Assembly: GCA_024372625.1 (NCBI GenBank)
Contig: CP099605.1
Coordinates: 2,604,001 to 2,668,000 of the forward strand
Origin: Comamonadaceae bacterium OTU4NAUVB1
Lineage (GTDB): Bacteria > Pseudomonadota > Gammaproteobacteria > Burkholderiales > Burkholderiaceae_C
Length of the DNA: 64,000 nucleotides
Direction of reading: 5' to 3'
Positions 20,680 through 46,648 of this stretch are shown piece by piece. The position numbers and the translations under genes are program-made. Every line of letters begins with the position of its first letter. Position 1 is the first letter of the stretch. Below the pieces are notes generated by a model, which was not told the DNA's origin, searched no databases, and saw nothing but the letters and a program-made list of their open reading frames with translations.

Positions 20680-20706
20680 ACGGCGCTTCGGCGCCGTTTT
20701 CTTTTG
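20680..20706 (+). terminator. rho-independent terminator of the ureide operon
   Basis: A perfect 7-bp stem ACGGCGC/GCGCCGT with a TTCG loop is followed by TTTCTTTT, 21 bp after the M20 hydrolase stop. It separates the regulator-puuE-fusion-M20 transcript from the permease genes. Confidence 0.9.
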
Positions 20707-20720
20707 GCGCGCAACTTGCA
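20705..20720 (+). promoter_or_regulatory. sigma-54-like promoter match upstream of the NCS2 permease
   Basis: TGGCGCGCAACTTGCA matches the -24/-12 consensus with one change (A to G in GGCAC) and correct spacing. The predicted start is near 20731, 145 nt before the permease ATG. It directly abuts the terminator T-tract. Confidence 0.45.
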
Positions 20721-20786
20721 TCGCGAGGTCCGTCCCGCCAGGCCGGGTCGCGGACTAGGCGTTTTCCTCGATGCGTGCGCAGCCAT

Positions 20787-20814
20787 GCTTTGTATACAGT
20801 TTCGCGTACAAAGC
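20787..20814. promoter_or_regulatory. operator-like dyad containing TGTATACA upstream of the NCS2 permease
   Basis: Perfect 8-bp arms GCTTTGTA and TACAAAGC flank a 12-bp centre, and the left side also contains the palindrome TGTATACA (20791-20798). This shares its core with the site between uraH and the FCD regulator. The permease genes are thus likely part of the same regulon. Confidence 0.6.
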
Positions 20815-20875
20815 AGTCGTCGCCCGCTCCGGCCCGCCGCGATCGCCACCGTCGTCCTTCCTCAGGAGCCACGTG

Positions 20876-22390: not shown

Positions 22391-22440
22391 GGCCGTTGCC
22401 TTCCCGACATCCACGACGACGACACAGGCGACACCTCCTC

Positions 22441-23886
22441 ATGCAACCCACCGGCCTCCACGGCGTCCCCGGCTCGGACGAACGCCTCATCAACCACGAC
22501 CTCGCGCCCGTCGCGGGCGAGCGCAAGAACTGGTCGAGCTACAGCATCTTCGCGATGTGGATGTCCGACATCCACAGCGTGGGCGGCTACACCTTCGCGG
22601 CCAGCCTGTTCCTGCTGGGACTCAACGGCTGGCAGGTGCTCGGCGCCCTGGTGGTGGGCATCGCCATCGTCAACGTGCTGATGAACTGGATCGGCCGGCC
22701 CAGCCAGCGGCACGGCATCCCCTACCCCGTGATGGCGCGCGTGAGCATGGGCGTGATGGGCGCGAACTTCGCCGCGCTCATCCGCGGCATCGTCGGCGTG
22801 GTCTGGTACGGCGTGCAGACGTACTTCGCCTCCAAGGCCGTGGCCACGCTGGTGCTGGTGTTCTTCCCGGCCGCCGCCGCGCTGCAGTCCAGCAGCTTCC
22901 TGCGGCTGGACCTGCTGGGCTGGGCGAGCTTCATGTTCATGTGGATCTTCCAGCTGCTGATCTTCCAGCGCGGCATGGACTCGATCCGCAGGTTCATCGA
23001 CTTCTGCGGCCCGGCGGTGTACGTGGTGATGTTCCTGCTGGCCGGCTGGATCGTCTGGAAAGCCGGCTGGGACGCGCTGGACCTGTCGCTCAGCGACAAG
23101 GTGCTCACCGGCGGCGAGTCGTTCGTCGCCATGGGCAGCGCGATCCTGCTGGTGGTGAGCTACTTCGCCGCGCTGCTGCTGAACTTCGGCGACTTCTCGC
23201 GCTACGCGCGCAGCGAGCGCGACATGCGCGTGGGCAACTTCCTGGGCCTGCCGGTCAACTTCATCCTGTTCGCGGTCATCGTGGTGATCGTCACCGCCGG
23301 CAGCGCCAAGGTGTTCGGCCACATGATCATGGACCCGATCGAGATCGTCGCGCGCATCGACAACAAGTGGGCCGTGGTGCTGGGCAGCGTGACCTTCATC
23401 ATCGCCACGATGGGCATCAACATCGTCGCCAACTTCGTCTCGCCGGCCTACGACTTCGCCAACCTGTTTCCCAAGCACATCGACTTCAGGCGCGGCGGGC
23501 TCATCACCTCGGTGCTGGCGGTGGCGGTGTGTCCGTGGATCTTCGTGGACAGCCCCAAGGCGATCACGGTGTTCGTGAGCGTGTTCGGCGCGGTGCTGGC
23601 GCCGCTGTTCGGCGTGATGGTGGCGGACTTCTACCTGCTCAAGAAGCAGGTGCTGAAGGTCGAGGACCTCTACACCATGGCCCCCGGCGGGCGCTACCAC
23701 TACGACGGCGGCTGGAACCGGGTCGGCGTCGCGGCCCTGGTGCTGGCCAGCGCGGTCTCCATCGGCTGGGAGCTGTGCACGCAGCTCCTGAAGGTGCTGC
23801 CGGAGAACAATTTCGGCTGGGTCATCGGCGCGGTCGCCGGCGCGGTCCTCTACGTCGCGATGATGCGCGGCGCCCGGCGCACCTGA
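22441..23886 (+). CDS. NCS1-family purine/allantoin-type permease
   Basis: A 481-aa nucleobase:cation symporter-1 protein with 12 hydrophobic segments. Landmarks are an N-terminal NHDLAPVAGERKNWSSYSIFAMWMSD, the HGIPYPVMARVSMGVMGAN loop near residue 100 and LLLNFGDFSRYARSERDM in the middle. This resembles PucI/allantoin and cytosine permeases. It lies 50 bp after the NCS2 gene and is probably co-transcribed. Allantoin or a related ureide is the expected substrate from context. Confidence 0.92.
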   Translation: MQPTGLHGVPGSDERLINHDLAPVAGERKNWSSYSIFAMWMSDIHSVGGYTFAASLFLLGLNGWQVLGALVVGIAIVNVLMNWIGRPSQRHGIPYPVMARVSMGVMGANFAALIRGIVGVVWYGVQTYFASKAVATLVLVFFPAAAALQSSSFLRLDLLGWASFMFMWIFQLLIFQRGMDSIRRFIDFCGPAVYVVMFLLAGWIVWKAGWDALDLSLSDKVLTGGESFVAMGSAILLVVSYFAALLLNFGDFSRYARSERDMRVGNFLGLPVNFILFAVIVVIVTAGSAKVFGHMIMDPIEIVARIDNKWAVVLGSVTFIIATMGINIVANFVSPAYDFANLFPKHIDFRRGGLITSVLAVAVCPWIFVDSPKAITVFVSVFGAVLAPLFGVMVADFYLLKKQVLKVEDLYTMAPGGRYHYDGGWNRVGVAALVLASAVSIGWELCTQLLKVLPENNFGWVIGAVAGAVLYVAMMRGARRT

Positions 23887-23923
23887 GCCGCGCCCCGCGC
23901 GACCCGCCCGGGCACGGCCGCGC

Positions 23924-25006
23924 TCAGATCGGCGTGCCCTTGTCGTCGTGCCGGTCGCCCACGTCGCCGGAGTTCGCGAACAGGCTCCACGCGGCCATGA
24001 ACAGGGCGGCGATGACCGGGCCGATCACGAACCCGTTGATGCCGAACAGCGCCATGCCGCCGATGGTGGACATCAGCACGATGTAGTCGGGCATCTGCGT
24101 GTCCTTGCCCACCAGGATGGGGCGCAGGATGTTGTCGACCAGGCCGATCACGAAGACGCCGACGAAGACCAGCACCAGGCCCTGCCAGATGCGCCCGGTC
24201 GCGAGGAAGTAGAGCGCCACCGGCCCCCAGATGAGCGCCGCGCCCACCGCCGGCAGCAGCGACAGGAAGGCCATCAGCACCGCCCAGAGCAGCGCCCCCT
24301 GCACGCCCAGGAACCAGAACGCCAGCCCGCCGAGCGTGCCCTGCGCGATCGCCACGGCCACGTTGCCCTTGACGGTGGCGCGGATCACGGTGGTGAACTT
24401 GTTGAGCAGGTAGTGCGTGTGCGGCTTGGCCAGCGGCAGCGCGTCGCGCACGGTCTTCGACAGCGCCGGACCGTCGCGCAGCAGGAAGTACAGCAGGTAC
24501 AGCATCACGAAGAAGCTGACGAAGAAGTCGAAGGTGTTCTGGCCGATGGTCAGCGCCTGGCCGGCGACGACCTGACTGCCCTGCGCCGCGCCGGCGGTGA
24601 TGCGCGATTCGAGCGAGGACATGTTGGTCAGGTCGAAACGCTCCAGGATGTTCATGACCCAGCGCGGCATCGCGCCCAGGATCTGCTGGAAGTAGGCGGC
24701 GAAATTGATCTGGCCCGTGCGGATGTCCTGCGTCACCACCGCCACCTGCTGCACCAGCGACACGCCGATCATGGCCAGCGGCAGGATCACGATCACCAGG
24801 CAGATCGCCAGCGTCGAGAGCGCGGCGGTGTTCTTGCGGCCGGGAAACTTCCGCAGCAGCCAGCGATACATGGGCGTGAACAGGATCGCCAGCGCCACCC
24901 CCCACAGCACGGCCCCGAAGAACGGCATCAGGATCCAGATGAAGGCGACCGTGACGATGGCGAGCAGGGCAAAGAAGGTGCCGCGCTGGAGTTGGGGGGA
25001 ATTCAT
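23924..25006 (-). CDS. AI-2E family transporter (PerM/YhhT-like)
   Basis: A 360-aa membrane protein of the AI-2E exporter-like family with about eight hydrophobic segments. Typical elements are FALLAIVTVAFIWILMPFFGAVLWG at the N-terminus, QGTLGGLAFWFLGVQGALLWAVLMAFLSLLPAVGAALIW (residues about 220-260) and LVDNILRPILVGKDTQMPD near 290. The function of these proteins is often unclear (autoinducer-2 export, ion or permease roles). It is convergent with the allantoin permease and appears unrelated to the nitrogen genes. Confidence 0.9.
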   Translation of the reverse strand: MNSPQLQRGTFFALLAIVTVAFIWILMPFFGAVLWGVALAILFTPMYRWLLRKFPGRKNTAALSTLAICLVIVILPLAMIGVSLVQQVAVVTQDIRTGQINFAAYFQQILGAMPRWVMNILERFDLTNMSSLESRITAGAAQGSQVVAGQALTIGQNTFDFFVSFFVMLYLLYFLLRDGPALSKTVRDALPLAKPHTHYLLNKFTTVIRATVKGNVAVAIAQGTLGGLAFWFLGVQGALLWAVLMAFLSLLPAVGAALIWGPVALYFLATGRIWQGLVLVFVGVFVIGLVDNILRPILVGKDTQMPDYIVLMSTIGGMALFGINGFVIGPVIAALFMAAWSLFANSGDVGDRHDDKGTPI

Positions 25007-25049
25007 AGGTGACGCAATGTAGTGCAGCCCTGCGCCGCGGCCGTGTACG

Positions 25050-25802
25050 TCAGGAACCGGACTTCGCGCCGTCCGTCGGTGGTCGTGGCGTTTGCGCAAC
25101 GTCCAGCGGCGCGAGCGTCGCGCGCAGGCGCGCCGGCGCATCGGGCTCGCGCGCCGCCGGTTCGACCTCCAGCGCCTGCTCGACGTTGCCGATGTGGGCC
25201 AGCATCAGGTCGCGCGCGCGGGCCGTGTCGCCGTCCTCGAGCGCGTCGACGATGGCGCCGTGCTCGGCGCAGGACTGTCCCGCGTCGTGGCGCGACTGGT
25301 AGAGCGTGGCCGCCAGCGTGGTGCGCGCGGTCAGGTCGCGCAGCACGTCGACCAGCAGCCGGTGGCCCATCTGCGCGGCCAGGCAGACGTGGAAGTCGGC
25401 CAGCAGGAAGGCGCGCGTGGCCGCGTCGGCGCCGTCGATGGCGCGCCGCTCGTCGGCGATGTGCTGGCGCAGGCGGCGCGTGACGGCCTGCAGCGGCCGC
25501 CCGGCTTCCGCGAGGATGCCGGCCTCGACGATGCGCCGCGCCGCGAAGGCGTCGCGCGCCTCCTCGGCCGAGGGCTGCACCACGTACCAGCCGCGCTTGC
25601 TCTGCACCTCGACGAAGCCGCGCGCCTGCAGCTTCATCAGCGCCTCGCGCACCATGGTGCGGCTGACGCCGAAGTTGCCCGCGAGCGCCTGCTCGCCCAG
25701 GCGCTCGCCCGGCGCGAGCTTCTGCGCCAGGATGGCCTCGACCACGCGCTCGGCGATGACGGTGGGCGAGACCTCGTCCAGGGCCGGTGCGCCCTCAGGC
25801 AT
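25050..25802 (-). CDS. GntR-family regulator with FCD domain (dctA-linked)
   Basis: A 250-aa regulator with wHTH GEQALAGNFGVSRTMVREALMKLQARGFVEV (about residues 32-62) and an FCD domain with LADFHVCLAAQMGH and CAEHGAIVDALEDGD. Its ATG overlaps the 3' end of dctA by 8 bp, so the two are co-transcribed. The paired TTGCATGCAA palindromes upstream of dctA are the obvious candidate target. The regulator would then control its own operon. The C-terminal 30 residues are Pro/Ala-rich and extend beyond the domain. Confidence 0.9.
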   Translation of the reverse strand: MPEGAPALDEVSPTVIAERVVEAILAQKLAPGERLGEQALAGNFGVSRTMVREALMKLQARGFVEVQSKRGWYVVQPSAEEARDAFAARRIVEAGILAEAGRPLQAVTRRLRQHIADERRAIDGADAATRAFLLADFHVCLAAQMGHRLLVDVLRDLTARTTLAATLYQSRHDAGQSCAEHGAIVDALEDGDTARARDLMLAHIGNVEQALEVEPAAREPDAPARLRATLAPLDVAQTPRPPTDGAKSGS

Positions 25803-27129
25803 GGCGCGCCGTCGCCGTGGCGGCGCTGGTGGCGACCGGCGCGTCGGCCGTCGTCGCGTCGTCGGGGGTCCAGGTGCCGTCGAGCACGGCATGGGCGCGT
25901 TCGCGGTCGATGTCGCCCTCCCAGGCGGCGACGGCCACCGTGGCGACGCAGTTGCCGATCAGGTTGCCCAGCGCGCGGGCGATGCCCATGAACCAGTCCA
26001 CCGACAGCACCAGCACCAGCCCGATGGCGGGGATCGCGGGGATCGCCTGCAGCGTCGCGGCCAGCACCACGATGGCCGAGCCCGGCACGCCGTGCGCGCC
26101 CTTGGAGGTGACCAGCGCGATCGCCAGGATCGCCAGCAGGTCCGACAGGGAGATCGGCGTGTTGGTGGCCTGCGCGATGAACACCGCCGCCAGCGTGATG
26201 TAGATGGAGAAGGCGTCGAGGTTGAACGAGTAGCCCGTCGGGATCACCAGGCCGACGGTCGAGTCGCGGATGCCCATGCGGCGCAGCTTGGCCATGACCT
26301 GGGGCAGCACGCTGTCCGACGAGGTGGTGGCGAAGACGATCGTGAGCTCCTCGCGCAGGTAGCGCAGCAGCTTGACCAGGCTGAAGCCCGACAGCCGCAT
26401 CACCAGCCCCAGCACGCCGAAGACGAAGATCAGCACCGCGCCGTAGAACAGCGCCACCAGCATTCCCAGCTGCTTGAGCGAGCCGATGCCGTAGCGCCCC
26501 ACCGTGAACGCGATCGCCCCGAGCACGCCCAGCGGCGCGAGCTTGATGATGATCCCCATGATCTTGAACAGGACCAGGGAGAGCGAGTCCACCACCTGCG
26601 CGACCGGCTTGCCGTGCTCGCCCAGCAGCGCCAGCGCGCAGCCGAAGAGCACCGCGAACAGCAGCACCTGCAGCACGTCGCCGGTGGCGAAGGCGCCCAC
26701 CACCGTGTTGGGGATGAGCTTCATCAGGAACTCCACCGTGCCGCCGCTGGTGAGCTTGTCGGCGTTGGAGGCGTAGGCGCTCATGGCGCTCGCGTCCAGC
26801 AGGCGCGGATCGACGTTCATGCCCACGCCGGGCTTGAAGACGAAGGCCAGCACCAGGCCCAGCACCAGCGCGATGGTGGTGAGCGCCTCGAAGTAGATCA
26901 GCGCCTTCACGCCGACCCGGCCCACGCGCCGGAGGTCGCCCGCGCCGGCGATGCCGTGCACCACGACGCAGAACACCAGCACCGGGATGATCATCTTGAT
27001 CAGCTTGATGAAACCGTCGCCCAGCGGCTTGAGCTTGACGGCGAGGTCGGGCACCAGCAGGCCGGCCAGCACGCCGAGCACCAGCGCGATGACGACTTGG
27101 CCGAAGAGGGATCGGGCGAAGCGGGGCAT
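25795..27129 (-). CDS. dctA: C4-dicarboxylate:cation symporter DctA
   Basis: A 444-aa member of the DAACS family taking up succinate, fumarate or malate. Characteristic stretches are the serine-rich TTSSDSVLPQVMAKL (about 275-290), GLVIPTGYSFNLDAFSIYITLAAVFIAQATN and SKGAHGVPGSAIVVLAATL. About eight transmembrane segments plus two re-entrant hairpins are expected. The start MPRFARSLFGQ was chosen; an in-frame ATG 12 codons upstream would place the coding start inside the operator region. It forms an operon with the FCD regulator. Confidence 0.94.
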   Translation of the reverse strand: MPRFARSLFGQVVIALVLGVLAGLLVPDLAVKLKPLGDGFIKLIKMIIPVLVFCVVVHGIAGAGDLRRVGRVGVKALIYFEALTTIALVLGLVLAFVFKPGVGMNVDPRLLDASAMSAYASNADKLTSGGTVEFLMKLIPNTVVGAFATGDVLQVLLFAVLFGCALALLGEHGKPVAQVVDSLSLVLFKIMGIIIKLAPLGVLGAIAFTVGRYGIGSLKQLGMLVALFYGAVLIFVFGVLGLVMRLSGFSLVKLLRYLREELTIVFATTSSDSVLPQVMAKLRRMGIRDSTVGLVIPTGYSFNLDAFSIYITLAAVFIAQATNTPISLSDLLAILAIALVTSKGAHGVPGSAIVVLAATLQAIPAIPAIGLVLVLSVDWFMGIARALGNLIGNCVATVAVAAWEGDIDRERAHAVLDGTWTPDDATTADAPVATSAATATARHA

Positions 27130-27151
27130 GGGAGGTTCCTGGAGTGGCAAG

Positions 27152-27185
27152 GTTGCATGCAACATCGCTCAAACTTGCATGCAAG
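27152..27185. promoter_or_regulatory. two tandem 12-bp palindromes (TTGCATGCAA core) upstream of dctA
   Basis: GTTGCATGCAAC (27152-27163) and CTTGCATGCAAG (27174-27185) are each perfect palindromes with centres 22 bp apart, two helical turns. The nearer one is 23 bp upstream of the dctA ATG. The arrangement is typical of a dimer-pair operator for the FCD regulator encoded in the same operon. Confidence 0.75.
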
Positions 27186-27270
27186 TAATGTAGGCAAGAT
27201 GGGCGCACGGGACCGAGCGGGTATTCCCGGGGCCTCGGCCGACGCAAGCAAGCGCCGTGCGCGGCGCATC

Positions 27271-28143
27271 ATGGGCACCATGGACACCCTGAGAACCCTG
27301 GAACTGCCGGCGGGACCGGCCATGCCCGTGCTCGGCCTGGGCACCTGGCGCCTGGGCGAGGACCCGGCCCGGCGCGCCGGCGAGGTGGCCGCCGTGCGCG
27401 CGGCCCTGCGCATGGGCTACCGGCTGATCGACACGGCCGAGATGTACGGCGACGGCGGTGCCGAGGAGGTCGTCGGCCAGGCGATCGCCGAGGCGGTGGA
27501 CGCGGGCGAGGTGCGGCGCGAATCGCTCTTCGTCGTGAGCAAGGTGCTGCCCCACAACGCCAGCCGCCGGGGCACGGCGCAGGCCTGCGACCGCAGCCTG
27601 GCGCGCCTCGGGCTGGCGCGCGTGGACCTCTACCTGCTGCACTGGCGCGGTCCGCACCGGTTGGCCGACACCGTCGCCGCCCTGGAGGCGCTGGTGGCCG
27701 ACGGCCGCGTCGGCGCCTGGGGCGTGAGCAACTTCGACACCGACGACATGGACGAACTCGCCGGCGTGCCCGGTGGCGATCGCTGCGTGACCGACCAGGT
27801 GTACTACTCGATCGCCGAGCGCGGCCCGGAGTTCAGCCTCGCGCCCTGGCTGCGCGCGCGTGGCCAGGCGCTGATGGCCTACAGCCCGATCGACCAGGGC
27901 GCGCTGGCGTCGGATCACGCCCTGGCCGCGCTGGCCGAGGCGCGCGGCGTCACGGCGGCGCAGCTGGCGCTCGCCCGGCTGCTGGCCGAGCCCGGCGTGG
28001 TCGCGATCCCGAAGGCGGCGCGCGAGACGCACCTGCGCGAGAACCTGGCGGCGGCGTCGATCGTGCTGTCCCCCGGGGACATCGCCGCGATCGACCGGCT
28101 GCACCCGCCGCCCAGGCGCAAGACGCCGCTGGCGATGATCTGA
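27271..28143 (+). CDS. aldo/keto reductase
   Basis: A 290-aa NADPH-dependent aldo/keto reductase. The catalytic tetrad is readable: Asp in RLIDTAEMYGDGG, Tyr in the same segment, Lys in VVSKVLPHNAS and His in LYLLHWRGP. The NADP-binding end IPKAARETHLRENLAA is present. ATGs at 27271 and 27280 are both possible starts. It is convergent with the LysR gene and shows no clear tie to nitrogen metabolism. Confidence 0.9.
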   Translation: MGTMDTLRTLELPAGPAMPVLGLGTWRLGEDPARRAGEVAAVRAALRMGYRLIDTAEMYGDGGAEEVVGQAIAEAVDAGEVRRESLFVVSKVLPHNASRRGTAQACDRSLARLGLARVDLYLLHWRGPHRLADTVAALEALVADGRVGAWGVSNFDTDDMDELAGVPGGDRCVTDQVYYSIAERGPEFSLAPWLRARGQALMAYSPIDQGALASDHALAALAEARGVTAAQLALARLLAEPGVVAIPKAARETHLRENLAAASIVLSPGDIAAIDRLHPPPRRKTPLAMI

Positions 28144-28165
28144 GGCGGCCTGGGCCGGTCGCGCC

Positions 28166-29092
28166 TCAGGCCTCCGGCGGCCCGGGCGGCGCGATCTCCC
28201 ACCAGCGCTCGCCGAAGCGCCCCTGCAGGAAGGCCACGAAGCCCGCGACCTTGCCGCCCAGCCGCCGGGGCGAGGGAAAGACGGCGTGGATCTCCTGGCT
28301 CGCCAGGGCATGGTCGGCCAGCACCTCCACCACCCGCCCCGTGGCGAGCGATTCCGCCGCGACGTAGCGCGGCACCATCGCCAGCCCCAGGCCGTCGCGC
28401 ACCGCCGCCAGCACGGCCGAGACGTTGTTCGAGCGCAGCCGCGCGGTCACCGGCACGCTCGCCGGTTCGCCCCGGGGCGTGCGCAGGTGCCAGACGTCGT
28501 CGCCCACCACGCTGCTGTAGGTGATCGCCACGTGCGCGCTCAGGTCGGCCGCGCGCCGGGGCGTGCCGTGGCGCGCCAGGTAGCCGGGCGCGGCCACCAC
28601 CACCCACGGGTTCAGGCCCAGGAAGCGCGCGCCGAGCGAGGAATCGGCCAGCCGCCCCATCCGGATCGCCACGTCGATGCCCTGCGCCACCAGGTCCACG
28701 TAGCGGTCCTCGAAGCTCAGGTCGAGCCGCACCCGCGGGTGGTCCGCCATGAATTCGAGCGCCAGCGGCACCACCACGCGGCGGCCGAAGGCGACCGAGG
28801 TGGCGATGCGCAGCAGCCCCTGCATGGCCGAGGGCTGCTGGCGCGCGACGTGCTCGGCCTCCTCGGCGTCGCGCACGACGGCCTTGCACCGCTCGCAGTA
28901 GAGCGCGCCCGCCTCGGTCGGGCTGACGCCGCGCGTGTTGCGGTGGAGCAGCCGCACCCCCAGGCGCGCCTCGAGGGCGGCGACCTGCTTGGTCACGGTG
29001 GGCTGGGTGGTGTTGAACTCGCGCGCCGCGCGCGAGAAGCTGCCGGTCTCCACCACCCGCACGAACATCGCCATCGCCTGCAATCGGTCCAT
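28166..29092 (-). CDS. LysR-family transcriptional regulator
   Basis: A 308-aa LysR regulator. Its N-terminal HTH reads MDRLQAMAMFVRVVETGSFSRAAREF followed by TTQPTVTKQVAALEARLGVRLLHRNTRGV, and an effector domain follows (RIATSVAFGRRVVVPLALEFM, SFEDRYVDLVAQGIDVAIRMG). It is divergent from the glyoxylate carboligase gene with a 130-bp gap holding a T-N11-A palindrome. Control of gcl-hyi is therefore a reasonable inference. Confidence 0.92.
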   Translation of the reverse strand: MDRLQAMAMFVRVVETGSFSRAAREFNTTQPTVTKQVAALEARLGVRLLHRNTRGVSPTEAGALYCERCKAVVRDAEEAEHVARQQPSAMQGLLRIATSVAFGRRVVVPLALEFMADHPRVRLDLSFEDRYVDLVAQGIDVAIRMGRLADSSLGARFLGLNPWVVVAAPGYLARHGTPRRAADLSAHVAITYSSVVGDDVWHLRTPRGEPASVPVTARLRSNNVSAVLAAVRDGLGLAMVPRYVAAESLATGRVVEVLADHALASQEIHAVFPSPRRLGGKVAGFVAFLQGRFGERWWEIAPPGPPEA

Positions 29093-29125
29093 GGCCGGAT
29101 GCTAGCCACGGATCGGCCCGCGGTC

Positions 29126-29140
29126 ATTCCGCGGCGGAAT
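29126..29140. promoter_or_regulatory. LysR-type T-N11-A palindrome between lysR and gcl
   Basis: ATTCCGCGGCGGAAT is a 15-bp dyad with 6-bp arms ATTCCG/CGGAAT. It contains a T-N11-A core and lies 34 bp from the LysR start and 83 bp from gcl. Placement is as expected for autoregulation and gcl activation. Confidence 0.55.
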
Positions 29141-29222
29141 AGCTTCTATGGCGCGGCACCGTCTTCCGCCCGGCGGCACCGGTTCCTAGAGTCGGTCCAT
29201 CGACATCCAAGGAGACATGCAC

Positions 29223-31022
<1,800 letters not shown>

Positions 31023-31038
31023 GCGGACGACGCACGCC

Positions 31039-31857
31039 ATGCCCCGTTTCGCCGCCAACCTGTCCATGCTGTTCACCGAGCGGCCCTTCATGCAGCGCTT
31101 CGAGGCGGCCGCCGCGGCCGGCTTCGAGGCCGTGGAATGCCTCTTCCCCTATGCCCTGCCCCGGCGCGAACTCGCCGCCGCGCTGCGCGCCAACGGCCTC
31201 GCGCAGGTGCTGCACAACCTGCCCGCGGGCCGGTGGGAGGCCGGCGAGCGCGGCATCGCCTGCCACCCGGGGCGCATCGGCGAGTTCCGCGCCGGCGTCG
31301 ACCGGGCCATCGACTACGCCCGGGCGCTGGGCTGTCCGCGCGTCAACTGCCTGGCCGGACGGCGCCCCGAAGGCGCGAGCGAGGCGGACGTCCGGCGCAC
31401 GCTGGTCGACAACCTGCGCTTCGCCGCGTCCCGGCTGCAGGCCGCGGGCATCGGGCTGCTGGTGGAGCCGGTCAACCACTTCGACGTCCCCGGCTTCGCG
31501 CTGACCACCACCGCGCAGGCGCTGTCGCTGATGGACGAGGTCGCTGCGCCCAACCTGCGGCTGCAGTACGACATCTACCACGCGCAGCGCATGGAAGGCG
31601 AGCTCGGCGCCACGCTGGCCGCCCACATCGGTCGCATCGGCCACATCCAGCTGGCCGACAACCCCGGACGCGGCGAGCCCGGCACCGGCGAGGTCCATTT
31701 CCCGTGGCTCCTGCGGCACATCGACGCGCTCGGCTACGACGGCTGGATCGGCTGCGAATACCGGCCGCGCGGCGACACGGCGGCCGGGCTGGGATGGCGC
31801 GACGCGTGGGCCGGACCCGTGCTTCCCATTAGACGGAAAGTGCCAATTCTGGAGTAG
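31039..31857 (+). CDS. hyi: hydroxypyruvate isomerase
   Basis: A 272-aa TIM-barrel isomerase (xylose-isomerase-like) interconverting hydroxypyruvate and tartronate semialdehyde. It has the Hyi landmarks NLSMLFTERPFMQRFEAAAAAGFEAVE at the start, LVEPVNHFDVPGF with the metal Glu, LQYDIYHAQRMEGEL and IGCEYRPRGDTAAGLGW near the end. Family members usually finish about a dozen residues after GLGW or sooner. Here a tail of about 19 residues runs into lower-GC DNA just before the malic enzyme gene. It is 17 bp downstream of gcl, and no tartronate-semialdehyde reductase gene follows. Confidence 0.92.
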   Translation: MPRFAANLSMLFTERPFMQRFEAAAAAGFEAVECLFPYALPRRELAAALRANGLAQVLHNLPAGRWEAGERGIACHPGRIGEFRAGVDRAIDYARALGCPRVNCLAGRRPEGASEADVRRTLVDNLRFAASRLQAAGIGLLVEPVNHFDVPGFALTTTAQALSLMDEVAAPNLRLQYDIYHAQRMEGELGATLAAHIGRIGHIQLADNPGRGEPGTGEVHFPWLLRHIDALGYDGWIGCEYRPRGDTAAGLGWRDAWAGPVLPIRRKVPILE

Positions 31858-36313: not shown

Positions 36314-36434
36314 GGCGATGGGAAGGCTGTTCGGTGGGGCGGCGCGGTCGTTGCGGCCGGATGCTGGCACCCGGCCCGCCGCCCGCCTGTCAGCCGGGGA
36401 CTGTCGCGGGCCTTCCCGATTCGCCATGAAACGA

Positions 36435-36451
36435 TGCACCGGAACGGTGCA
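36435..36451. promoter_or_regulatory. perfect NtrC-type dyad TGCACC-N5-GGTGCA
   Basis: TGCACCGGAACGGTGCA is a 17-bp dyad with the arm sequence and spacing of enteric NtrC sites (TGCACC-N5-GGTGCA). It touches the -24 side of a sigma-54-like promoter. Such sites normally act from further upstream, so its position is unusual. Confidence 0.6.
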
Positions 36452-36466
36452 GGCACCGTTATTGCT
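36451..36466 (+). promoter_or_regulatory. sigma-54 promoter match for the NMT1-type ABC operon
   Basis: AGGCACCGTTATTGCT has GGCAC at -24 and TTGCT at -12 with the correct 12-bp register. The predicted start is near 36477, 48 nt before the binding-protein ATG. Together with the adjoining NtrC-type dyad it points to nitrogen-limitation control. Confidence 0.6.
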
Positions 36467-36524
36467 AATTCCCGACGCCATTCTCCCGACGCCATCCCCC
36501 TCCTCCTCCCGCACGCCCTCCCCG

Positions 36525-37553
36525 ATGAACAAGCGCCACCTCCTCCAGTCCTTCTTCGCCGCTTCCGTCCTCGCCCTCGGCCTCGCCGGGAGCGCGAACG
36601 CGCAGACGCCCGTCAAGTTCCAGCTCGACTGGCGCTTCGAGGGACCGGCCGCGCTGTTCCTGCACCCGGCGGCCAAGGGCTACTTCAAGGGCGCCGGACT
36701 CGACGTGACGATCGACGCGGGCAACGGCTCGGGCGGCACGGTCACGCGCGTGGCCTCCGGCGCCTACGACATGGGCTTCGCCGACCTCGCCGCGCTCATG
36801 GAATTCCACGCCAACAACCCCGACGCGCCCAACAAGCCCGTGGCGGTCATGATGGTCTACAACAACACGCCGGCCTCGGTGATGGCGCTGAAGAAGAGCG
36901 GCATCGCGAAGCCGGCGGACCTCGCGGGCAAGAAGCTCGGCGCGCCGGTGTTCGACGCCGGGCGCCGCGCCTTCCCGATCTTCGCCAAGGCCAACAACGT
37001 GGGCGCGGTCAACTGGACCGCCATGGACCCGACCCTGCGCGAGACCATGCTCATGCGCGGCGACGTCGACGCCATCACCGGCTTCACCTTCACCTCGCTG
37101 CTCAACCTGGAGGCGCGCGGCGCCAAGGCGGCCGACGTCGTGGTGCTGCCCTATCCCGACTACGGCGTGAAGCTCTACGGCAACGCGATCATCGTCTCGC
37201 CGAAGATGCTCAAGGACAACCCGGCTGCGGTGAAGGCGTTCCTCTCGGCCTTCGCCAAGGGCGCGAAGGAAGTCATCGCCAACCCGGCGGTGGCGATCGA
37301 ATCGGTCAAGGCGCGCGACGGCATCATCGACGCCAAGCTGGAGACGCGCCGGCTGCAGCTGGCCATCGACACCGTGATCAACAGCGCCGACGCGCGCACC
37401 GAGGGCTTCGGCGCCGTCAACGCCGCCCGCCTGTCGCTGATGGCCTCGCAGGTGTCGGACGCCTTCGCGACCAAGACTCGGGTCGACCCGGCCACGGTGT
37501 GGAACGCCACGCTGCTGCCGCCGGCCGCCGAACTCGCCGTCCTGAAGAAGTGA
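36525..37553 (+). CDS. NMT1/THI5-like ABC transporter substrate-binding protein
   Basis: A 342-aa periplasmic protein with a Sec signal (MNKRHLLQSFFAASVLALGLAGSANA, cleavage after about residue 26). It is of the NMT1/THI5/SsuA type: PVKFQLDWRFEGPAALFLHPAAKGYFKGAGLDVTIDAGNGSGGTVTRV is the classical ligand-site opening, and LYGNAIIVSPKMLKDNP is conserved later. Relatives bind pyrimidines, purines, riboflavin precursors or sulfonates. The deaminase at the end of the operon suggests a nucleobase-like ligand. Confidence 0.9.
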   Translation: MNKRHLLQSFFAASVLALGLAGSANAQTPVKFQLDWRFEGPAALFLHPAAKGYFKGAGLDVTIDAGNGSGGTVTRVASGAYDMGFADLAALMEFHANNPDAPNKPVAVMMVYNNTPASVMALKKSGIAKPADLAGKKLGAPVFDAGRRAFPIFAKANNVGAVNWTAMDPTLRETMLMRGDVDAITGFTFTSLLNLEARGAKAADVVVLPYPDYGVKLYGNAIIVSPKMLKDNPAAVKAFLSAFAKGAKEVIANPAVAIESVKARDGIIDAKLETRRLQLAIDTVINSADARTEGFGAVNAARLSLMASQVSDAFATKTRVDPATVWNATLLPPAAELAVLKK

Positions 37554-37588
37554 CGCCCGACGCCCGCCGACCCCGCGCCCCCGAAGCC

Positions 37589-38413
37589 ATGTCCGAACCC
37601 ACCCACTTCGTCGATTTCCAGGATGTCTGGCTGGCCTACAACGAACAGCTGCTGCGCGAGAACCATTTCGCGGTCGAGGCCATCGACCTGAAGATCCGGC
37701 GCGGCGAGTTCATCGCCATCGTCGGACCCTCGGGCTGCGGCAAGTCGACCTTCATGAAGCTCGCCACCGGCCTGAAGATGCCCTCGATGGGCCGCATCCG
37801 CATCGACGGCGCGCCGGTCACCGGACCGCTGAAGGTCTCGGGCATGGCCTTCCAGGCGCCGTCGCTGCTGCCCTGGCGGACCACGGTCGACAACGTGCTG
37901 CTGCCGCTGGAGATCGTCGAGCCCTACCGCTCCAGCTTCCGCGCCAAGCGCAAGGAATACGAGGAACGCGCCCGCCGGCTGCTGCAGAAGGTCGGCCTCG
38001 CCGGCTACGAGGACAAGTTCCCCTGGCAGCTCTCCGGGGGCATGCAGCAGCGTGCGAGCATCTGCCGCGCGCTCATCCACGAGCCCCAGATGCTGCTCCT
38101 GGACGAGCCTTTCGGCGCGCTCGACGCCTTCACGCGCGAGGAGCTGTGGTGCATCCTGCGCGACCTGTGGACCGAACAGCGCTTCACCGTCATCCTGGTC
38201 ACCCACGACCTGCGCGAGAGCGTCTTCCTGGCCGACACGGTCTATGTCATGAGCAAGAGCCCCGGGCGCTTCGTCGTGCGCCGCGAGATCGAGCTGCCGC
38301 GCCCGCGCGAGCTCGAACTCACCTACACCAAGGAATTCACCGACATGGTCCTGGAACTGCGCGGGCACATCGGCGCGTTGCGGGGCAGTCCGGCCCCGGC
38401 GGTGGCGGCATGA
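37589..38413 (+). CDS. ABC transporter ATPase (nitrate/sulfonate/pyrimidine type)
   Basis: A 274-aa ATPase with Walker A GPSGCGKST (about residues 47-55), Q-loop AFQAPSLLPWRT, signature LSGGMQQRASICRAL, Walker B LLLDEPFGALD and H-loop VTHD. The NVLLPLEIVEPYRS insertion and SPGRFVVRREIELPRPRELE tail are typical of SsuB/TauB/ThiZ-like subunits. It overlaps the permease start by 4 bp (ATGA). Confidence 0.93.
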   Translation: MSEPTHFVDFQDVWLAYNEQLLRENHFAVEAIDLKIRRGEFIAIVGPSGCGKSTFMKLATGLKMPSMGRIRIDGAPVTGPLKVSGMAFQAPSLLPWRTTVDNVLLPLEIVEPYRSSFRAKRKEYEERARRLLQKVGLAGYEDKFPWQLSGGMQQRASICRALIHEPQMLLLDEPFGALDAFTREELWCILRDLWTEQRFTVILVTHDLRESVFLADTVYVMSKSPGRFVVRREIELPRPRELELTYTKEFTDMVLELRGHIGALRGSPAPAVAA

Positions 38414-39192
38414 GCGCGATGCAGCGCAACGCCCGGCAGATCGAGCGCTGGTCGCCGTGGCTGCTGCTGGTGGCGGTGCTGGTGCTCTGGCAGATCGTCT
38501 GCGCGGGCTTCGGCATCTCGGAATTCATCTTCCCCAGCCCGATGCGCATCTGGACGCAGTTCTGGGAGTTCAAGGAGATCATCGCCGGCCACGCCTGGCG
38601 CACCTTCTGGGTCACGATGGCCGGCTTCGGCCTGGCCATCGTCGTGGGCGTGCTGCTGGGCTTCGTCATCGGCAGCTCGCGCCTGGCCTACGCGGCGATG
38701 TACCCGCTGATGACGGCCTTCAACGCCCTGCCCAAGGCGGCCTTCGTGCCGATCCTGGTGGTGTGGTTCGGCATCGGCGTCGGTCCGGCGATCCTGACGG
38801 CCTTCCTCATCAGCTTCTTTCCGATCATGGTGAACATCGCCACCGGTCTGGCGACGCTGGAGCCGGAACTCGAGGACGTGCTGCGCGTGCTGGGCGCCCG
38901 GCGCTGGGACGTGCTGATGAAGATCGGCCTGCCGCGTTCCATGCCGTACTTCTTCGCCTCGCTCAAGGTGGCCATCACGCTGGCCTTCGTCGGCACCACG
39001 GTCAGCGAGATGACGGCGGCCAACGAGGGCATCGGCTACCTGCTGATCTCCGCCGGCTCGGCCATGCAGATGGGCCTGGCCTTCGCGGGCCTGATGGTGG
39101 TGGGCGCGATGGCGATGGTGATGTACGAGCTGTTCAGCCTGATCGAGAAGCACACGACCGGCTGGGCGCACCGCGGCTCGCAGGGCGGATGA
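38410..39192 (+). CDS. ABC transporter permease (SsuC/ThiX-like)
   Basis: A 260-aa permease with six hydrophobic segments and the EAA-like loop ELEDVLRVLGARRWDVLMKIGLPRSMPY (about residues 155-182). The N-terminal FGISEFIFPSPMRIW is typical of this family. It overlaps both neighbours by 4 bp, so it is tightly coupled to the ATPase and the deaminase. Confidence 0.93.
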   Translation: MSAMQRNARQIERWSPWLLLVAVLVLWQIVCAGFGISEFIFPSPMRIWTQFWEFKEIIAGHAWRTFWVTMAGFGLAIVVGVLLGFVIGSSRLAYAAMYPLMTAFNALPKAAFVPILVVWFGIGVGPAILTAFLISFFPIMVNIATGLATLEPELEDVLRVLGARRWDVLMKIGLPRSMPYFFASLKVAITLAFVGTTVSEMTAANEGIGYLLISAGSAMQMGLAFAGLMVVGAMAMVMYELFSLIEKHTTGWAHRGSQGG

Positions 39193-39671
39193 CGCGCGAT
39201 CAGGCGATCGCCGCGCTGCGGCGGGCCGACGCGGTGGCGCGGCGGGCGATGGCGATGGGCCGGCATCCGTTCGGGGCCGTGCTGGTGGCCCCGGACGGCG
39301 ACACGGTGCTGGCCGAGCAGGGCAACATCGACACCGTCCATCACGCCGAGGCGACGCTCGCGCGCCACGCCTCGCTCGACCATCCGGCCGCCTACCTGCG
39401 GCGCTGCACGCTGGTGACCACCTTCGAGCCCTGCGCGATGTGCGCGGGCACCGTGTACTGGGCGGACATCGGCCGGGTCGTCTACGGCGCGGGCGAGGAC
39501 GCCCTGCTCGCCCTGACCGGCGACCACCCCGAGAACCCCACGCTCGCGCTGCCCTGCCGCGAGGTCTTCGCGCGCGGCCAGAAAGCCATCGAGGTGATCG
39601 GGCCGGTGGCCGAAGTGGCCGAGGAGATGGTGGCGACGCACCGCGGCTTCTGGGCCTCGCGCGGGCGGTAA
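39189..39671 (+). CDS. nucleobase/nucleoside deaminase (cytidine-deaminase superfamily)
   Basis: A 160-aa zinc deaminase of the CMP/dCMP-guanine deaminase fold. The zinc/proton-shuttle motif is HHAEATL and the two Cys ligands are in EPCAMCAGTVYW, which is also the substrate-pocket segment. GRHPFGAVLVAPDG and IGRVVYG are typical of guanine/cytosine-deaminase-like proteins. Overlap with the permease stop (ATGA) shows it belongs to the transporter operon, so the imported compound is probably deaminated directly, releasing ammonia. Confidence 0.9.
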   Translation: MTRDQAIAALRRADAVARRAMAMGRHPFGAVLVAPDGDTVLAEQGNIDTVHHAEATLARHASLDHPAAYLRRCTLVTTFEPCAMCAGTVYWADIGRVVYGAGEDALLALTGDHPENPTLALPCREVFARGQKAIEVIGPVAEVAEEMVATHRGFWASRGR

Positions 39672-42828: not shown

Positions 42829-42842
<14 letters not shown>

Positions 42843-43827
42843 AGTTCGCCGCGATGCGCTGGTTCAGGAAATCGCCCGCGCTGATCGGCGCGTGCGTTCC
42901 GCCCGGGCTCACGATCATCGCGTCGCGGTTGGCCTGGGCGAAGAAGGCGATGCTGTAGCGCGGCCCCATGTACTCGCCCGGCAGCGGGTTCTTCACGCGG
43001 TGGAAGTTGCTCGGCAGACGGTCGTCGCTCCAGCGCATGAGCATGTCGCCGATGTTGCAGGTGATGGCGTCGCCGTCGGGCGCGATCGGCGTCCATTCCT
43101 GCGCGTCCATCTCCTTGCCCGGACACACTTCCAGGCCGCCCTGGCCGTGGCGCTGGTAGAGCAGGGTCAGGCAGTCGAAATCGGTGTGGGCGCCGGCCCG
43201 CCAGAGTTCGAGCCGGTCCTGCGCCTCGGGCGGGATCGCGTAGTAGTGCAGCAGGCGCAGGGTGCTCTGGTAGCTGGCGCGTTCGGAATCGTGCGCGCGG
43301 GCGAAGAAGTCGCGCTCGAAGCCCAGCCGGGTGGCGAAGCACGACAGCACCCGCATGGCGACCTCCCAGCTCTCGCGCTCGAAGGCGAGCATCGTCTCGC
43401 GAAAGCCCGGCAGTTCCGCGTCGGTCGGCCACAGGCCGGCCATGTGCGGACGGGTGAGCTGGTAGCTTTCCTTCTGGTCGGGCGTGCCGGTGGAGGGCCG
43501 GACCTGCGCCTTGCTCTCCCAGCCGGCGTTGAGCGCCTTTTTCAGCGGGTACTGCGCCTTGACCGGTTCGGGCAGCGCGAACAGGCGTTCGGCCATCTCG
43601 AAGGCGCCGCGTACCTTGGCGAGGTCGATGCCGTGGTTGACGAGCTGGAAGAAACCGACATCGACGGCCGCGTCCCACAGCGCCTGCGCGATGACGTCGC
43701 GGCGGCGCTCGAAGTCGGAGAGGTCGATGCGGCGGATCTCGCGCGCGGTGGTGGTGCGGCCCACCGCGCCCATGCGGGTCTCGCGCTGGATCTCGGCGAG
43801 GTCGTGGTCGGCGGCGCTCGTGGTCAT
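42829..43827 (-). CDS. 2-oxoglutarate/Fe(II) oxygenase, isopenicillin-N-synthase-like
   Basis: A 332-aa non-haem iron dioxygenase. The DIOX_N region [17 protein letters not shown] with [20 protein letters not shown] is followed by the C-terminal 2OG-FeII domain. The facial triad is His and Asp in [13 protein letters not shown], the distal His is in [14 protein letters not shown], and 2OG-binding Arg-Ser is in [17 protein letters not shown] is 9 nt before the ATG. Upstream lies a putative xanthine/urate (NMT1-type) riboswitch, and divergently an NMT1 transporter with a deaminase. The related fungal thymine 7-hydroxylase shows that this fold can oxidise nucleobases. A purine- or pyrimidine-ring oxygenase is therefore a testable inference; the substrate is unknown. 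Confidence 0.88.
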
Positions 43828-43860
43828 GGCATGGATCTCCTGAAGGTTGGAACAACGCAT

Positions 43861-43919
43861 CAAGAGCAATTTCCTGCCAGCCCGTGAAGGCCTGCGGCTG
43901 GTGAACGCTTCTACTCTCG
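43861..43919 (-). promoter_or_regulatory. putative NMT1-motif (xanthine/urate) riboswitch leading the 2OG oxygenase
   Basis: Read on the minus strand, the RNA forms P1 (CGAGAG with CUCUUG, six pairs including one G-U) around an asymmetric internal loop, UAGAAGCGUUCA on one side and GGAAAUUG on the other. An apical P2 pairs CCAGCC with GGCUGG. Loop sequence and P1 are identical to the plus-strand copy, but the P2 arms differ and still pair. P1 ends 33 nt before the oxygenase ATG, with AGGAG in between. A weak -24/-12-like TGGC-N7-TTGC lies at 43954-43968. Class assignment rests on remembered consensus plus the NMT1 gene association. Confidence 0.75.
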
Positions 43920-44070
43920 CGGCGCCGATGATGCGCCCGCCCCGTCCCCCGGGGCAAGCCGGCGGCCACGGTGACCCCGCGCGGTGGTCGAACTTCGCTG
44001 GTGCACGGCGCGCCGCGTCTTGGTGCATGCCGGCGGCGCGGCGCGCGGCCGGTTCGGGACGACGGGGGAT

Positions 44071-44085
44071 TGGCATGCCTCGTGC
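44071..44085 (+). promoter_or_regulatory. sigma-54 promoter match directly before the plus-strand riboswitch
   Basis: TGGCATGCCTCGTGC has the -24 GG and -12 GC in the right register with two mismatches to the extended consensus. The predicted transcription start, about 44097, is exactly at the first paired base of the riboswitch motif. That strengthens the call. Confidence 0.5.
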
Positions 44086-44097
44086 TTGCCGCAGGAC

Positions 44098-44160
44098 CGA
44101 GAGTAGAAGCGTTCAGCAGCGCACGCACCCGGTCCGGGCGCTGCCCGGAAATTGCTCTTG
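44098..44160 (+). promoter_or_regulatory. putative NMT1-motif (xanthine/urate) riboswitch leading the NMT1 transporter/deaminase operon
   Basis: P1 pairs 44098-44103 with 44155-44160. The internal loop is UAGAAGCGUUCA (44104-44115) opposite CCGGAAAUUG (44145-44154). P2 is a perfect 7-bp stem, GCAGCGC (44116-44122) with GCGCUGC (44138-44144), capped by a C/G-rich loop. The motif is the inverted partner of the minus-strand copy. The gene it leads encodes an NMT1-domain protein, the namesake association of this riboswitch class. Confidence 0.78.
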
Positions 44161-44221
44161 AAGCACCTGTCGCCCTCGCGCGACGGGTTTCAAGGCCACC
44201 ACGATTCCAGGGTTCATCGCC

Positions 44222-45253
44222 ATGCAACGCCGCACCTTCCTCGCCACCGGCTCCGCCGTGGCCGCCTGCTCGCTCGCCGCCCCGCTCGCCTTCGCACAGG
44301 GCACGAAGCCCGTGCCGATCAAGTTCACGCTCGACTTCCGCATCAACGGCCAGACCGCGCCGTTCTTCCTCGCACTGGCCAAAGGCTACTACCGCGACGA
44401 GGGGCTGGACGTGACGATCGACACCGGCGCCGGCTCGGTCGCCTCCATCACGCGCATCGCCAGCGGCGTCTACCAGCTCGGCCTGGGCGACATCAGCTCG
44501 CTGGTCGAGTTCAACGCCCAGCACCCGGGCACGCCGGTGGTGCAGGCGGTCTACCAGTACTACAACCGGGCGCCCTTCGTCATCATCGGCCGCAAGGACC
44601 GGGGCGTGACCGGCGACTTCCGCAGCCTGGCGGGCCGCAAGGTGGCCGCGGCCGCCGTCGAGTCGACCCGCCGCGCCTGGCCGATGGTGGCGCGCAAGAC
44701 CGGCATGAAGCCCGACGCCTTCCAGTGGCAGACCACCGACTTCAGCGCCCGCGACAACGTCATGGTGCGCGGCGACGTCGATGCCGCGACCTACTTCCAC
44801 GACTCGGCCGTGTCGCTGTTCGCGCGCATGAAGACGGACGAACTCTCGATCCTGAAGTACGCCGACGCCGGCGTCGACCTGTACGGCAACGCCATCCTCG
44901 CGAGCAGCAACCTGGTCGCCCAGAATCCCCAGGCCGTCGCCGCCTTCCTGCGCGCGAGCAACCGCGCCATCGTCGAGACCCTGGCCAACCCGGGTCCGTC
45001 GATCGCCGCGATGCGCCAGCGCGAGCCGATCCTCGACGAGCGCGTCGAACTCGATCGCTGGGCCATCACCGCCCAGTACGTGGCGGCGTCCGACACCCGC
45101 TCGCACGGACTGGGCGATATTCGCAAGCTCGTCCTCGAGCGCCAGGTCGACGAGGTGGTCGACGTCTTCGGCCTCCGGACCCGGCCCTCGGCCGATGCCA
45201 TCTTCAACACCTCGATGCTGCCCGCGCGCGGCGAACGCACCGTCAAGACATGA
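44222..45253 (+). CDS. NMT1/THI5-like substrate-binding protein
   Basis: A 343-aa periplasmic protein with a Tat-like or Sec signal (MQRRTFLATGSAVAACSLAAPLAFAQ). The NMT1-type opening is IKFTLDFRINGQTAPFFLALAKGYYRDEGLDVTIDTGAGSVASITRIASG, and YGNAILASSNLVAQNPQAVAAFLRASN is conserved downstream. It is led by a putative xanthine/urate riboswitch. No permease or ATPase gene follows, so it must use subunits encoded elsewhere, perhaps those at 37589-39192. Purine uptake is the best inference. Confidence 0.9.
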   Translation: MQRRTFLATGSAVAACSLAAPLAFAQGTKPVPIKFTLDFRINGQTAPFFLALAKGYYRDEGLDVTIDTGAGSVASITRIASGVYQLGLGDISSLVEFNAQHPGTPVVQAVYQYYNRAPFVIIGRKDRGVTGDFRSLAGRKVAAAAVESTRRAWPMVARKTGMKPDAFQWQTTDFSARDNVMVRGDVDAATYFHDSAVSLFARMKTDELSILKYADAGVDLYGNAILASSNLVAQNPQAVAAFLRASNRAIVETLANPGPSIAAMRQREPILDERVELDRWAITAQYVAASDTRSHGLGDIRKLVLERQVDEVVDVFGLRTRPSADAIFNTSMLPARGERTVKT

Positions 45254-45789
45254 CCTCCACCACCTCCCCCCCGATCCGCACCCCCGCAAGACTCCCCGCC
45301 GAGCAGCCCCTGGACGAACGCGACGGCCGCTACCTGCGCAAGGCCATCTACTGGTCGCACGCGGCGGTCCGGCGCGGCAACCGGCCCTTCGGCGCCCTCG
45401 TGGTGTCGGCCGCCGGCGAAGTCATCGCCGAGGCCTACAACAACACCGCGGAGACGGGCGACTGCACCGGCCACGCCGAGATGGGCGCCATCCGCGCCCT
45501 GGCGGCGCGCAAGCCCTCGCGCGACGAACTCGCCGGCGCCACGCTGTACTCGTCGGGCGAGCCGTGCGTGATGTGCGCCGGCGCGATCTTCTGGTCGAAC
45601 ATCGGGCGCGTGGTGTTCGGCATCGACGCCGAGCGCCTGCGCGTCTTCCGGGGCGAGCACCAGGACCAGCGCGACGCCGAACTCTCGTGCCGGGACGTGT
45701 TCGCCGCCTCCCCGCACCCGATCGAATGCATCGGTCCGGCGTTGATCGGCGAAGCCACGGTGCCCCACGAAGGGGCCTGGAAGCCCTGA
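45250..45789 (+). CDS. guanine-deaminase-like nucleobase deaminase
   Basis: A 179-aa cytidine-deaminase-superfamily protein with zinc ligands in TGHAEMGAIRAL and GEPCVMCAGAIFWSNIGRVVFGID. The NNTAETGDCTGHAEM stretch and the C-terminal HPIECIGPAL with an aromatic tail resemble GuaD-type guanine deaminases, which yield xanthine and ammonia. It overlaps the binding-protein stop (ATGA). Being in a putative xanthine-riboswitch operon supports a purine substrate. Confidence 0.9.
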   Translation: MTSTTSPPIRTPARLPAEQPLDERDGRYLRKAIYWSHAAVRRGNRPFGALVVSAAGEVIAEAYNNTAETGDCTGHAEMGAIRALAARKPSRDELAGATLYSSGEPCVMCAGAIFWSNIGRVVFGIDAERLRVFRGEHQDQRDAELSCRDVFAASPHPIECIGPALIGEATVPHEGAWKP

Positions 45790-45814: not shown

Positions 45815-46648
45815 ATGCCCTGGCACGCCCGACTCGCGCTCGACTACAGCGCCACCGACCCCTCACGCACCGTCGCGCGCTTCCGCCACGACGGCCCCCT
45901 GCGCATCCTGCAGAGCCTGTACCCGGAAGGCCCCGCGGTCTGCCACAACGTGCTGGTGCATCCGCCGGGCGGCCTGGTGGGCGGCGACACGCTCGACATC
46001 GACGTGAGCGCGGCGCCCGGCAGCCACGGGCTGGTCACGACGCCGGGGGCGACGCGCTTCTACCGCAGCGAGGGCGAGGCGGCGGTGCAGCGCGCCACGC
46101 TGCGCCTCGCGGCCGGCGCGCGACTCGAATGGCTGCCCCTCGAAGCGCTCTGCTACAGCGGCTGCCGGGCCGAGAACCGCCTGCGCATCGAGGCCGCGCC
46201 CGGCGCCGAGCTGATCGGCTGGGACGTGAGCGCGCTGGGGCTGCCGGCCGCCGGCCAGCCCTTCGTGCGCGGCAGCCTGCTGCAGCACATCGAGGTGCCG
46301 GGCACGTGGCTGGAGCGCGCGCGCATCGACGCGGCCGACCACCGGCTGCTCGCCAGCCCGATCGGCCTGGCCGGCCACCGCTGCATGGCCACGCTGTTCC
46401 TGGTGACGGGCACGCCGCTCGCGCGCGCGCGGCGCGAGGCGCTGCTCGACCTCGCGCGCGCGCTGGCCGACGCGCACCCGCTCGCGGCGAGCGCCGGCGC
46501 CACCAGCCCGCACGGCGGGATCGTCGTGCTGCGCGTGCTCGCGCCCGTGGTGGAACCGGCGATGCACCTGCTGCGCCAGGTGTGGCTGGCCTGGCGCGGC
46601 GAACTCTGGCGGCGCCCGGCCGTCGCGCCGCGCATCTGGTCGATGTGA
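45815..46648 (+). CDS. ureD: urease accessory protein UreD
   Basis: A 277-aa UreD/UreH protein, the scaffold that with UreF and UreG loads nickel into urease. Typical stretches are LQSLYPEGPAVCHNVLVHPPGGLVGGD (about residues 32-58), TTPGATRFYRS, LEWLPLEALCYSGCRAENRL and RPAVAPRIWSM at the C-terminus. It stands 25 bp after the deaminase, but no ureA, ureB, ureC, ureE, ureF or ureG gene is in the window. The gene looks complete. Urea is the expected end product of the ureide route here. Confidence 0.95.
   Translation: MPWHARLALDYSATDPSRTVARFRHDGPLRILQSLYPEGPAVCHNVLVHPPGGLVGGDTLDIDVSAAPGSHGLVTTPGATRFYRSEGEAAVQRATLRLAAGARLEWLPLEALCYSGCRAENRLRIEAAPGAELIGWDVSALGLPAAGQPFVRGSLLQHIEVPGTWLERARIDAADHRLLASPIGLAGHRCMATLFLVTGTPLARARREALLDLARALADAHPLAASAGATSPHGGIVVLRVLAPVVEPAMHLLRQVWLAWRGELWRRPAVAPRIWSM

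Follow-up and report, generated by a model that had tools for sequence, protein, structure and literature searches.

A divergent pair of xanthine riboswitches with leaders suggestive of translational induction at a purine-catabolism locus

Analysis of the window (the whole 64,000-nt stretch of DNA from Comamonadaceae bacterium OTU4NAUVB1) revealed two xanthine riboswitch aptamers facing away from each other within one intergenic region. Comparison of their leaders with those of other loci suggests that, where the leader is short or mid-length, xanthine riboswitches are ON switches inducible by substrate, in which the 3′ end of the aptamer would act as an anti-Shine-Dalgarno sequence. If so (we give this reading a probability of roughly 0.58), the published assignment of the class as OFF would be wrong or not general, and the divergent pair would serve as an RNA inducer of purine catabolism acting on both sides. 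The accepted physiology would then be reversed: instead of a waste product shutting genes off, a substrate would induce the pathway that degrades it. Both the class and the layout of the window pair have been published before, and the pair adds one more case to each; what is new here is the expression platform, in which, judging from the leader sequences, the ribosome site would pair with the 3′ end of its own aptamer.

Results

Two aptamers and the genes that they lead

Both strands were searched with the Rfam covariance model of the xanthine riboswitch (RF03054, the former NMT1 motif; gathering score 36 bits) and each copy scored above the cut-off (Table 1). As had been proposed in the preliminary description, there is one copy per strand, placed back to back; the Rfam matches reach slightly beyond positions 43861–44160, to which the pair had been assigned. 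The structural details given there were also recovered: the flanks CGAGAGUAGAAGCGUUCA and GGAAAUUGCUCUUG have the same letters in the plus and minus copies, the P2 arms are unlike yet pair in each (CCAGCC/GGCUGG in the minus copy, GCAGCGC/GCGCUGC in the plus copy), and P1 is present in both. One non-standard pair is marked in P2 of the minus copy in the Rfam alignment. Both copies contain the conserved core letters together with P1, P2a and P2b in the full-length alignment to RF03054.

The minus copy leads a gene encoding a 2OG-Fe(II) oxygenase, while the plus copy leads genes for an NMT1 protein, as noted previously, and a deaminase. Both leading gene types are linked to the class, whose published partners are NMT1, pcbC-like, other dioxygenase and tadA genes (Yu & Breaker 2020, PMC7373994). 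The identification of the copies as xanthine (NMT1) riboswitches is thus supported by the model scores, the full-length alignments and the class-typical genes downstream. The deaminase lies below the NCBI TadA cut-off (NF008113; 68.7 vs 150 bits), and thymine dioxygenase is the second-best match of the oxygenase among solved structures (2.8e-26). Two genomes belonging to the same genus as the window (L008 and L016) show a Rieske-type N-terminal pattern opposite NMT1, in the place occupied in the window by the 2OG oxygenase.

When the entire 4.66-Mb genome was searched, with 150 of the 374 first-look candidates scored, these were the only two matches; the presence of both copies at this locus is therefore beyond chance. 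The class binds xanthine and uric acid, as reported for a Serratia representative (PMC7373994), and by family membership both copies would be expected to respond to xanthine or urate.

Table 1. Coordinates of the riboswitch features and of the genes discussed (positions in the window).
Feature	Position	Strand	Details
Urate oxidase	12613-13818		PF06181
XdhC	14011-14829		
Hydroxyisourate hydrolase	15421-17631		C-terminal part of frame
OHCU decarboxylase/allantoate amidohydrolase-type fusion	17441-19366		
Xanthine permease	20771-22390		
Glyoxylate carboligase	29217-31022		
Hydroxypyruvate isomerase	31039-31857		
2OG-Fe(II) oxygenase, isopenicillin N synthase-like, pcbC type	42829..43827	-	PF03171 2.8e-20, PF14226 2.6e-18
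UCAGGAG, Shine-Dalgarno region of oxygenase gene	43837..43843	-	ATG start at 43827
CUCUUGA, P1 3′ strand and flank, predicted anti-Shine-Dalgarno of minus copy	43860..43866	-	pairs with 43837-43843
Xanthine riboswitch aptamer, minus copy	43921..43859	-	RF03054 50.4 bits, E 3.2e-8, model 1-56/56
Xanthine riboswitch aptamer, plus copy	44096..44162	+	RF03054 59.4 bits, E 1e-10, model 1-56/56
CCCGG, P2 tip, main predicted Shine-Dalgarno partner in free leader	44128..44132	+	pair probabilities 0.81-0.98
CCCGGAA, aptamer 3′ side, second possible Shine-Dalgarno partner	44144..44150	+	two-strand duplex -9.4 kcal/mol
Hairpin CUUGAA...UUCAAG competing with P1	44157..44194	+	takes part of P1 3′ strand; minimum-energy fold, free leader
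UUCCAGGG, weak Shine-Dalgarno region of NMT1 gene	44205..44212	+	letters checked
NMT1/THI5-like substrate-binding protein	44222..45253	+	PF09084 3.6e-36
Cytidine/deoxycytidylate deaminase family deaminase, TadA-like	45256..45789	+	PF00383 4.2e-22

Purine-catabolism surroundings

Positions 12613–31857 of the window form a purine-catabolism island (Table 1), and XdhB is encoded approximately 12 kb before the window. The riboswitch-led genes share their neighbourhood with genes for urate and allantoate breakdown, which would fit induction. Genes for the breakdown of oxidized purines were not seen among the class-linked genes, according to the account of Yu and Breaker (PMC7373994).

The region 36434–39671 contains genes for an ABC transporter ATPase, a permease and a second TadA-like deaminase, and the Rfam model search of the window gave no xanthine riboswitch match there. 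The riboswitch-led deaminase gene is followed by a UreD urease accessory gene (45815–46648); the next called gene, on the other strand, encodes an MFS transporter.

Distribution of the divergent arrangement

The divergent arrangement is less unusual than the preliminary description implied. It is already in print, adjacent copies in opposing orientations being reported for Hydrogenophaga intermedia S1 (PMC7373994), and it is common in the window's bacterial family, where the riboswitch was found in 48 of 250 genomes and a divergent pair in 28 of these 48 (i.e. in 28 of the 31 genomes with at least two copies). Draws from the order, class and phylum, which share some genomes, gave matches at E ≤0.001 in 17/399, 4/369 and 17/398 genomes, respectively (13, 2 and 17 over the cut-off). 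Among the matches listed, all 62 opposite-strand pairs are divergent, with the copies 67 to 404 nt apart; as judged by N-terminal pattern, 44 of these pairs combine NMT1 with a pcbC-type gene and 11 combine NMT1 with a Rieske-type gene, and seven could be typed on one side.

The view that one copy arose from the other by a recent local duplication is not supported. The shared flanks do not imply such an event, since in 57 pairs the compared ends of the NMT1-side aptamers are more alike across loci (0.873 identity) than they are like those of their own partners (0.821).

Predicted folding of the two leaders

In the free minus leader, all seven bases of UCAGGAG are predicted to pair with positions 43860–43866, each with a probability of at least 0.95, and the predicted cost of opening the ribosome site falls from 7.56 kcal/mol in the free leader to 3.38 kcal/mol with the aptamer enforced. 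Since its ribosome site is predicted to pair with the 3′ strand of P1, the minus copy clearly fits an ON switch, and its modelled leader has a clean ON design. Without ligand, the P1 3′ segment CUCUUGA would pair with UCAGGAG before the oxygenase start and block ribosome loading; with xanthine or urate bound, P1 would be locked, the ribosome site freed and translation switched ON.

For the plus leader the predicted opening cost changes from 5.54 kcal/mol (free) to 1.79 kcal/mol (aptamer enforced). The ribosome site of this leader is predicted to pair chiefly with the P2 tip, which leaves the plus copy ambiguous in sign; the models argue only weakly for ON. Nested pairing with the P2 tip would open P2. 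A pseudoknot that leaves P2 intact is an alternative and, coexisting with the formed plus aptamer, would favour OFF. The segment CCCGGAA, the partner favoured among NMT1-gene leaders, is unused in the free ensemble of the plus leader; it was dropped as the anti-Shine-Dalgarno of this copy, as the pair probabilities place the ribosome site on the P2 tip. The plus copy would probably follow a like logic with other partners, a segment of the aptamer hiding the ribosome site while the competing hairpin takes up the 3′ strand of P1, its sign being less certain. We consider it reasonably probable that the two riboswitches drive the divergent purine-catabolism locus in this way, by translational ON control, with that reservation on the sign of the plus copy.

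Control by an intrinsic terminator is not supported: the region 43800–44260 contains one terminator-like site (44133–44149), which lies within the plus aptamer, where shuffled sequences lead one to expect 0.4. A consensus scan of the same region, which is little informative, found no sigma-70 promoters.

Pairing of ribosome sites with their own aptamers

A set of leaders was assembled from at least 248 motif matches, of which 194 were unique and 193 had a called start; 148 remained after clustering at 72%. Stretches without the aptamer 3′ half were left out. A script working on N-terminal patterns assigned the starts and gene types, and some of the starts are wrong (e.g. that of the L008 minus leader, 235 nt); L159 from a Cyclobacteriaceae contig, probably a chance match, was kept in the set. 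The leaders were classified by start distance as short (within 50 nt; 34 leaders), mid (51–110 nt; 64) or long (50).

In a swap test, pairing of the zone from −24 to −5 with the 3′ end of its own aptamer was compared with pairing to the aptamer 3′ ends of other leaders. Own pairing was the stronger in short leaders (−11.41 vs −9.01 kcal/mol; 0/20000 permutations) and in mid leaders (−11.18 vs −9.88 kcal/mol; 0/20000), while the 50 long leaders were without a ribosome-site signal in this test (own −9.75, swapped −10.11 kcal/mol). Under stricter clustering, the result for short leaders was kept (n=23, 0/20000) and that for mid leaders became weaker (n=34, 14/20000). Divided by gene, the test gave p values of 0.008 for NMT1, 5e-5 for Rieske-type and 0.067 for pcbC-type genes alone, the last figure counting against ON. 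Nothing comparable was obtained for short and mid leaders with the P1 5′ strand, P2 segments, coding sequence or an upstream shift. Two of the controls were not flat: the P2 loop side reached z −1.95 against long leaders (131/5000) and the P1 5′ strand z −1.41 against short ones.

The best duplex comprises at least four P1 3′ nucleotides and at least three Shine-Dalgarno bases in 25/34 short, 26/64 mid and 23/50 long leaders, that of the long leaders not being specific to the own aptamer. The arms beside the constant CUC:GAG co-vary (TTGA/TCAG, TTTC/GAAG, TTCGG/CCGAA, TTGG/CCAA, TTGAT/ATCAA, CAAT/ATTG and others), and such compensated arms extend the pairing by at least four pairs, in several letter combinations, in 24 of the 81 leaders examined, when the best of several registers is taken for each leader.

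The letters before GGAG differ according to the gene. TCA occupies this position in 16 of the 44 dioxygenase leaders with GGAG, and TCC does so in 9 of the 33 NMT1 leaders with GGAG; among 131 other genes from these loci, the counts are 2 for TCA and 0 for TCC. The favoured partner of NMT1 genes is CCCGGAAATT (mean −7.07 kcal/mol in 44 NMT1 leaders vs −4.35 in 72 dioxygenase leaders), equalled on the NMT1 set by none of 300 shuffled ten-letter segments. Ribosome sites on the NMT1 side and on the dioxygenase side prefer different partners.

The complementarity could in principle merely reflect the richness of the P1 strand in pyrimidines and of Shine-Dalgarno sequences in purines, with no role in switching: composition alone gives CUC:GAG, swapped pairs already reach about −9 kcal/mol, and clustering controls relatedness only partly. 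However, the swap test holds the common part constant and own-leader specificity remains; in addition, the arms change together, and TCA and TCC before GGAG are rare in the other genes of the same loci. An origin as a by-product is thus highly improbable.

Distal pairing in long leaders

In long leaders, the partner of the P1 3′ strand is a distal element (own −14.06, swapped −12.56; z −4.92, 0/5000), in a test whose control segment, the P2 5′ arm, also reaches z −1.99. In leaders such as L180, L009, L191 and L098, a long sequence complementary to this strand (e.g. CTTCAAGAGC) lies well upstream of the start. Some long leaders contain AAGAGG and an ATG opening a short frame after the distal complement, and in several the short upstream frame ends at the main start (e.g. 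AAGAGGCGATG after the distal element). The ATGA overlaps of such upstream frames are expected by composition.

Predicted direction of regulation

As the enforcement of any fold removes competitors, swapped ribosome-site zones were used as a control for the predicted effect of the aptamer on opening cost. The gain was scored in 144 of the 148 leaders, and the swap control was applied to 34/34 short leaders, 62/64 mid leaders and 43 long leaders of up to 200 nt. With the aptamer enforced, the predicted gain exceeds 1 kcal/mol in only 72/144 leaders and is below −1 in 9/144, in partial agreement with release of the ribosome site by ligand. Mean predicted gains for own and swapped zones are 2.95 vs 0.80 (short), 1.37 vs 0.61 (mid) and 0.89 vs 0.03 (long), and the own gain is above the mean of the leader's own swaps in 28/34, 42/62 and 31/43 leaders, respectively. 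A point against ON is the energy needed to enforce the aptamer, 8.2 and 11.4 kcal/mol in the two window leaders. Binding at micromolar affinity would return about this amount or less, so that switching would need to occur during transcription, unless the model overstates the cost.

The signs of regulation might also be mixed, with short leaders (including the minus copy) ON and the plus copy or the long leaders OFF or acting at another step. This would agree with the variation of platforms among the 34 short, 64 mid and 50 long leaders, with the use of a distal element by the P1 3′ strand of the long ones, with the different partners favoured on the two sides of the pairs, and with the origin of the sole leader assayed in the published reporter work, an NMT1-containing locus (PMC7373994). 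We nevertheless regard mixed signs as unlikely, as long leaders keep a small ON-ward gain over their swaps and the distal signal has to be read against the z value of its own control segment.

Discussion

The case for substrate-inducible ON switches in short and mid leaders depends on which nucleotides hide the ribosome site. P1 is required for binding, as reported for mutant M3 (PMC7373994); since the ribosome-site pairing uses P1 or core nucleotides, ligand binding and burial of the site should be mutually exclusive, and the site should become exposed once ligand is bound. The same study gives evidence that sequestration of the ribosome site is a common platform of the class (PMC7373994).

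The predicted leader architecture is clearly of the ON type in the minus copy and in the short leaders taken together, and this conflicts with the published OFF assignment. If that assignment holds here, both copies would be ligand-OFF translational switches, with accumulated xanthine stopping transport and oxidation genes. The assignment rests on one reporter, in which the H. intermedia S1 leader was compared with a one-base mutant: the wild type was lower than the binding-dead mutant in rich and minimal media (PMC7373994). The complementarity of the plus ribosome site to the P2 tip, where pairing is possible with the aptamer formed, also speaks for OFF. Against this, the published methods text names no added xanthine (PMC7373994), and the conserved, compensated ribosome-site pairing takes aptamer 3′ nucleotides needed in the bound fold. 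The NMT1 leader of H. intermedia MER 62 (L134) has a modest predicted gain (from 5.73 to 4.05 kcal/mol with the aptamer enforced), and single A-to-U changes in its core shift the opening cost of the NMT1 site from 6.02 to values between 5.50 and 6.05 kcal/mol, in a strain and at positions that may differ from those of the published mutant; these modelled folds neither explain nor exclude the rise observed with that mutant. On balance, we consider OFF control of both copies rather unlikely and prefer ON control of short and mid leaders.

The logic proposed for the minus copy resembles that of translational ON riboswitches such as the add adenine riboswitch, in which part of the aptamer hides the ribosome site in the free state and the ligand releases it. 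The aptamer, ligand and genes of the add riboswitch are unrelated to those of the window. The crystal structure of the xanthine riboswitch (Xu et al. 2021, PMC8266621) concerns the same aptamer class and treats the aptamer rather than these leaders; that paper restates OFF regulation, citing Yu and Breaker. With RF03054 as described by Yu and Breaker (PMC7373994), the window pair shares the aptamer sequence and structure, the partner genes and the opposed arrangement seen in H. intermedia S1; the difference is in the sign, published there as OFF, whereas the leaders surveyed here, and that of the minus copy especially, appear to be built for ON.
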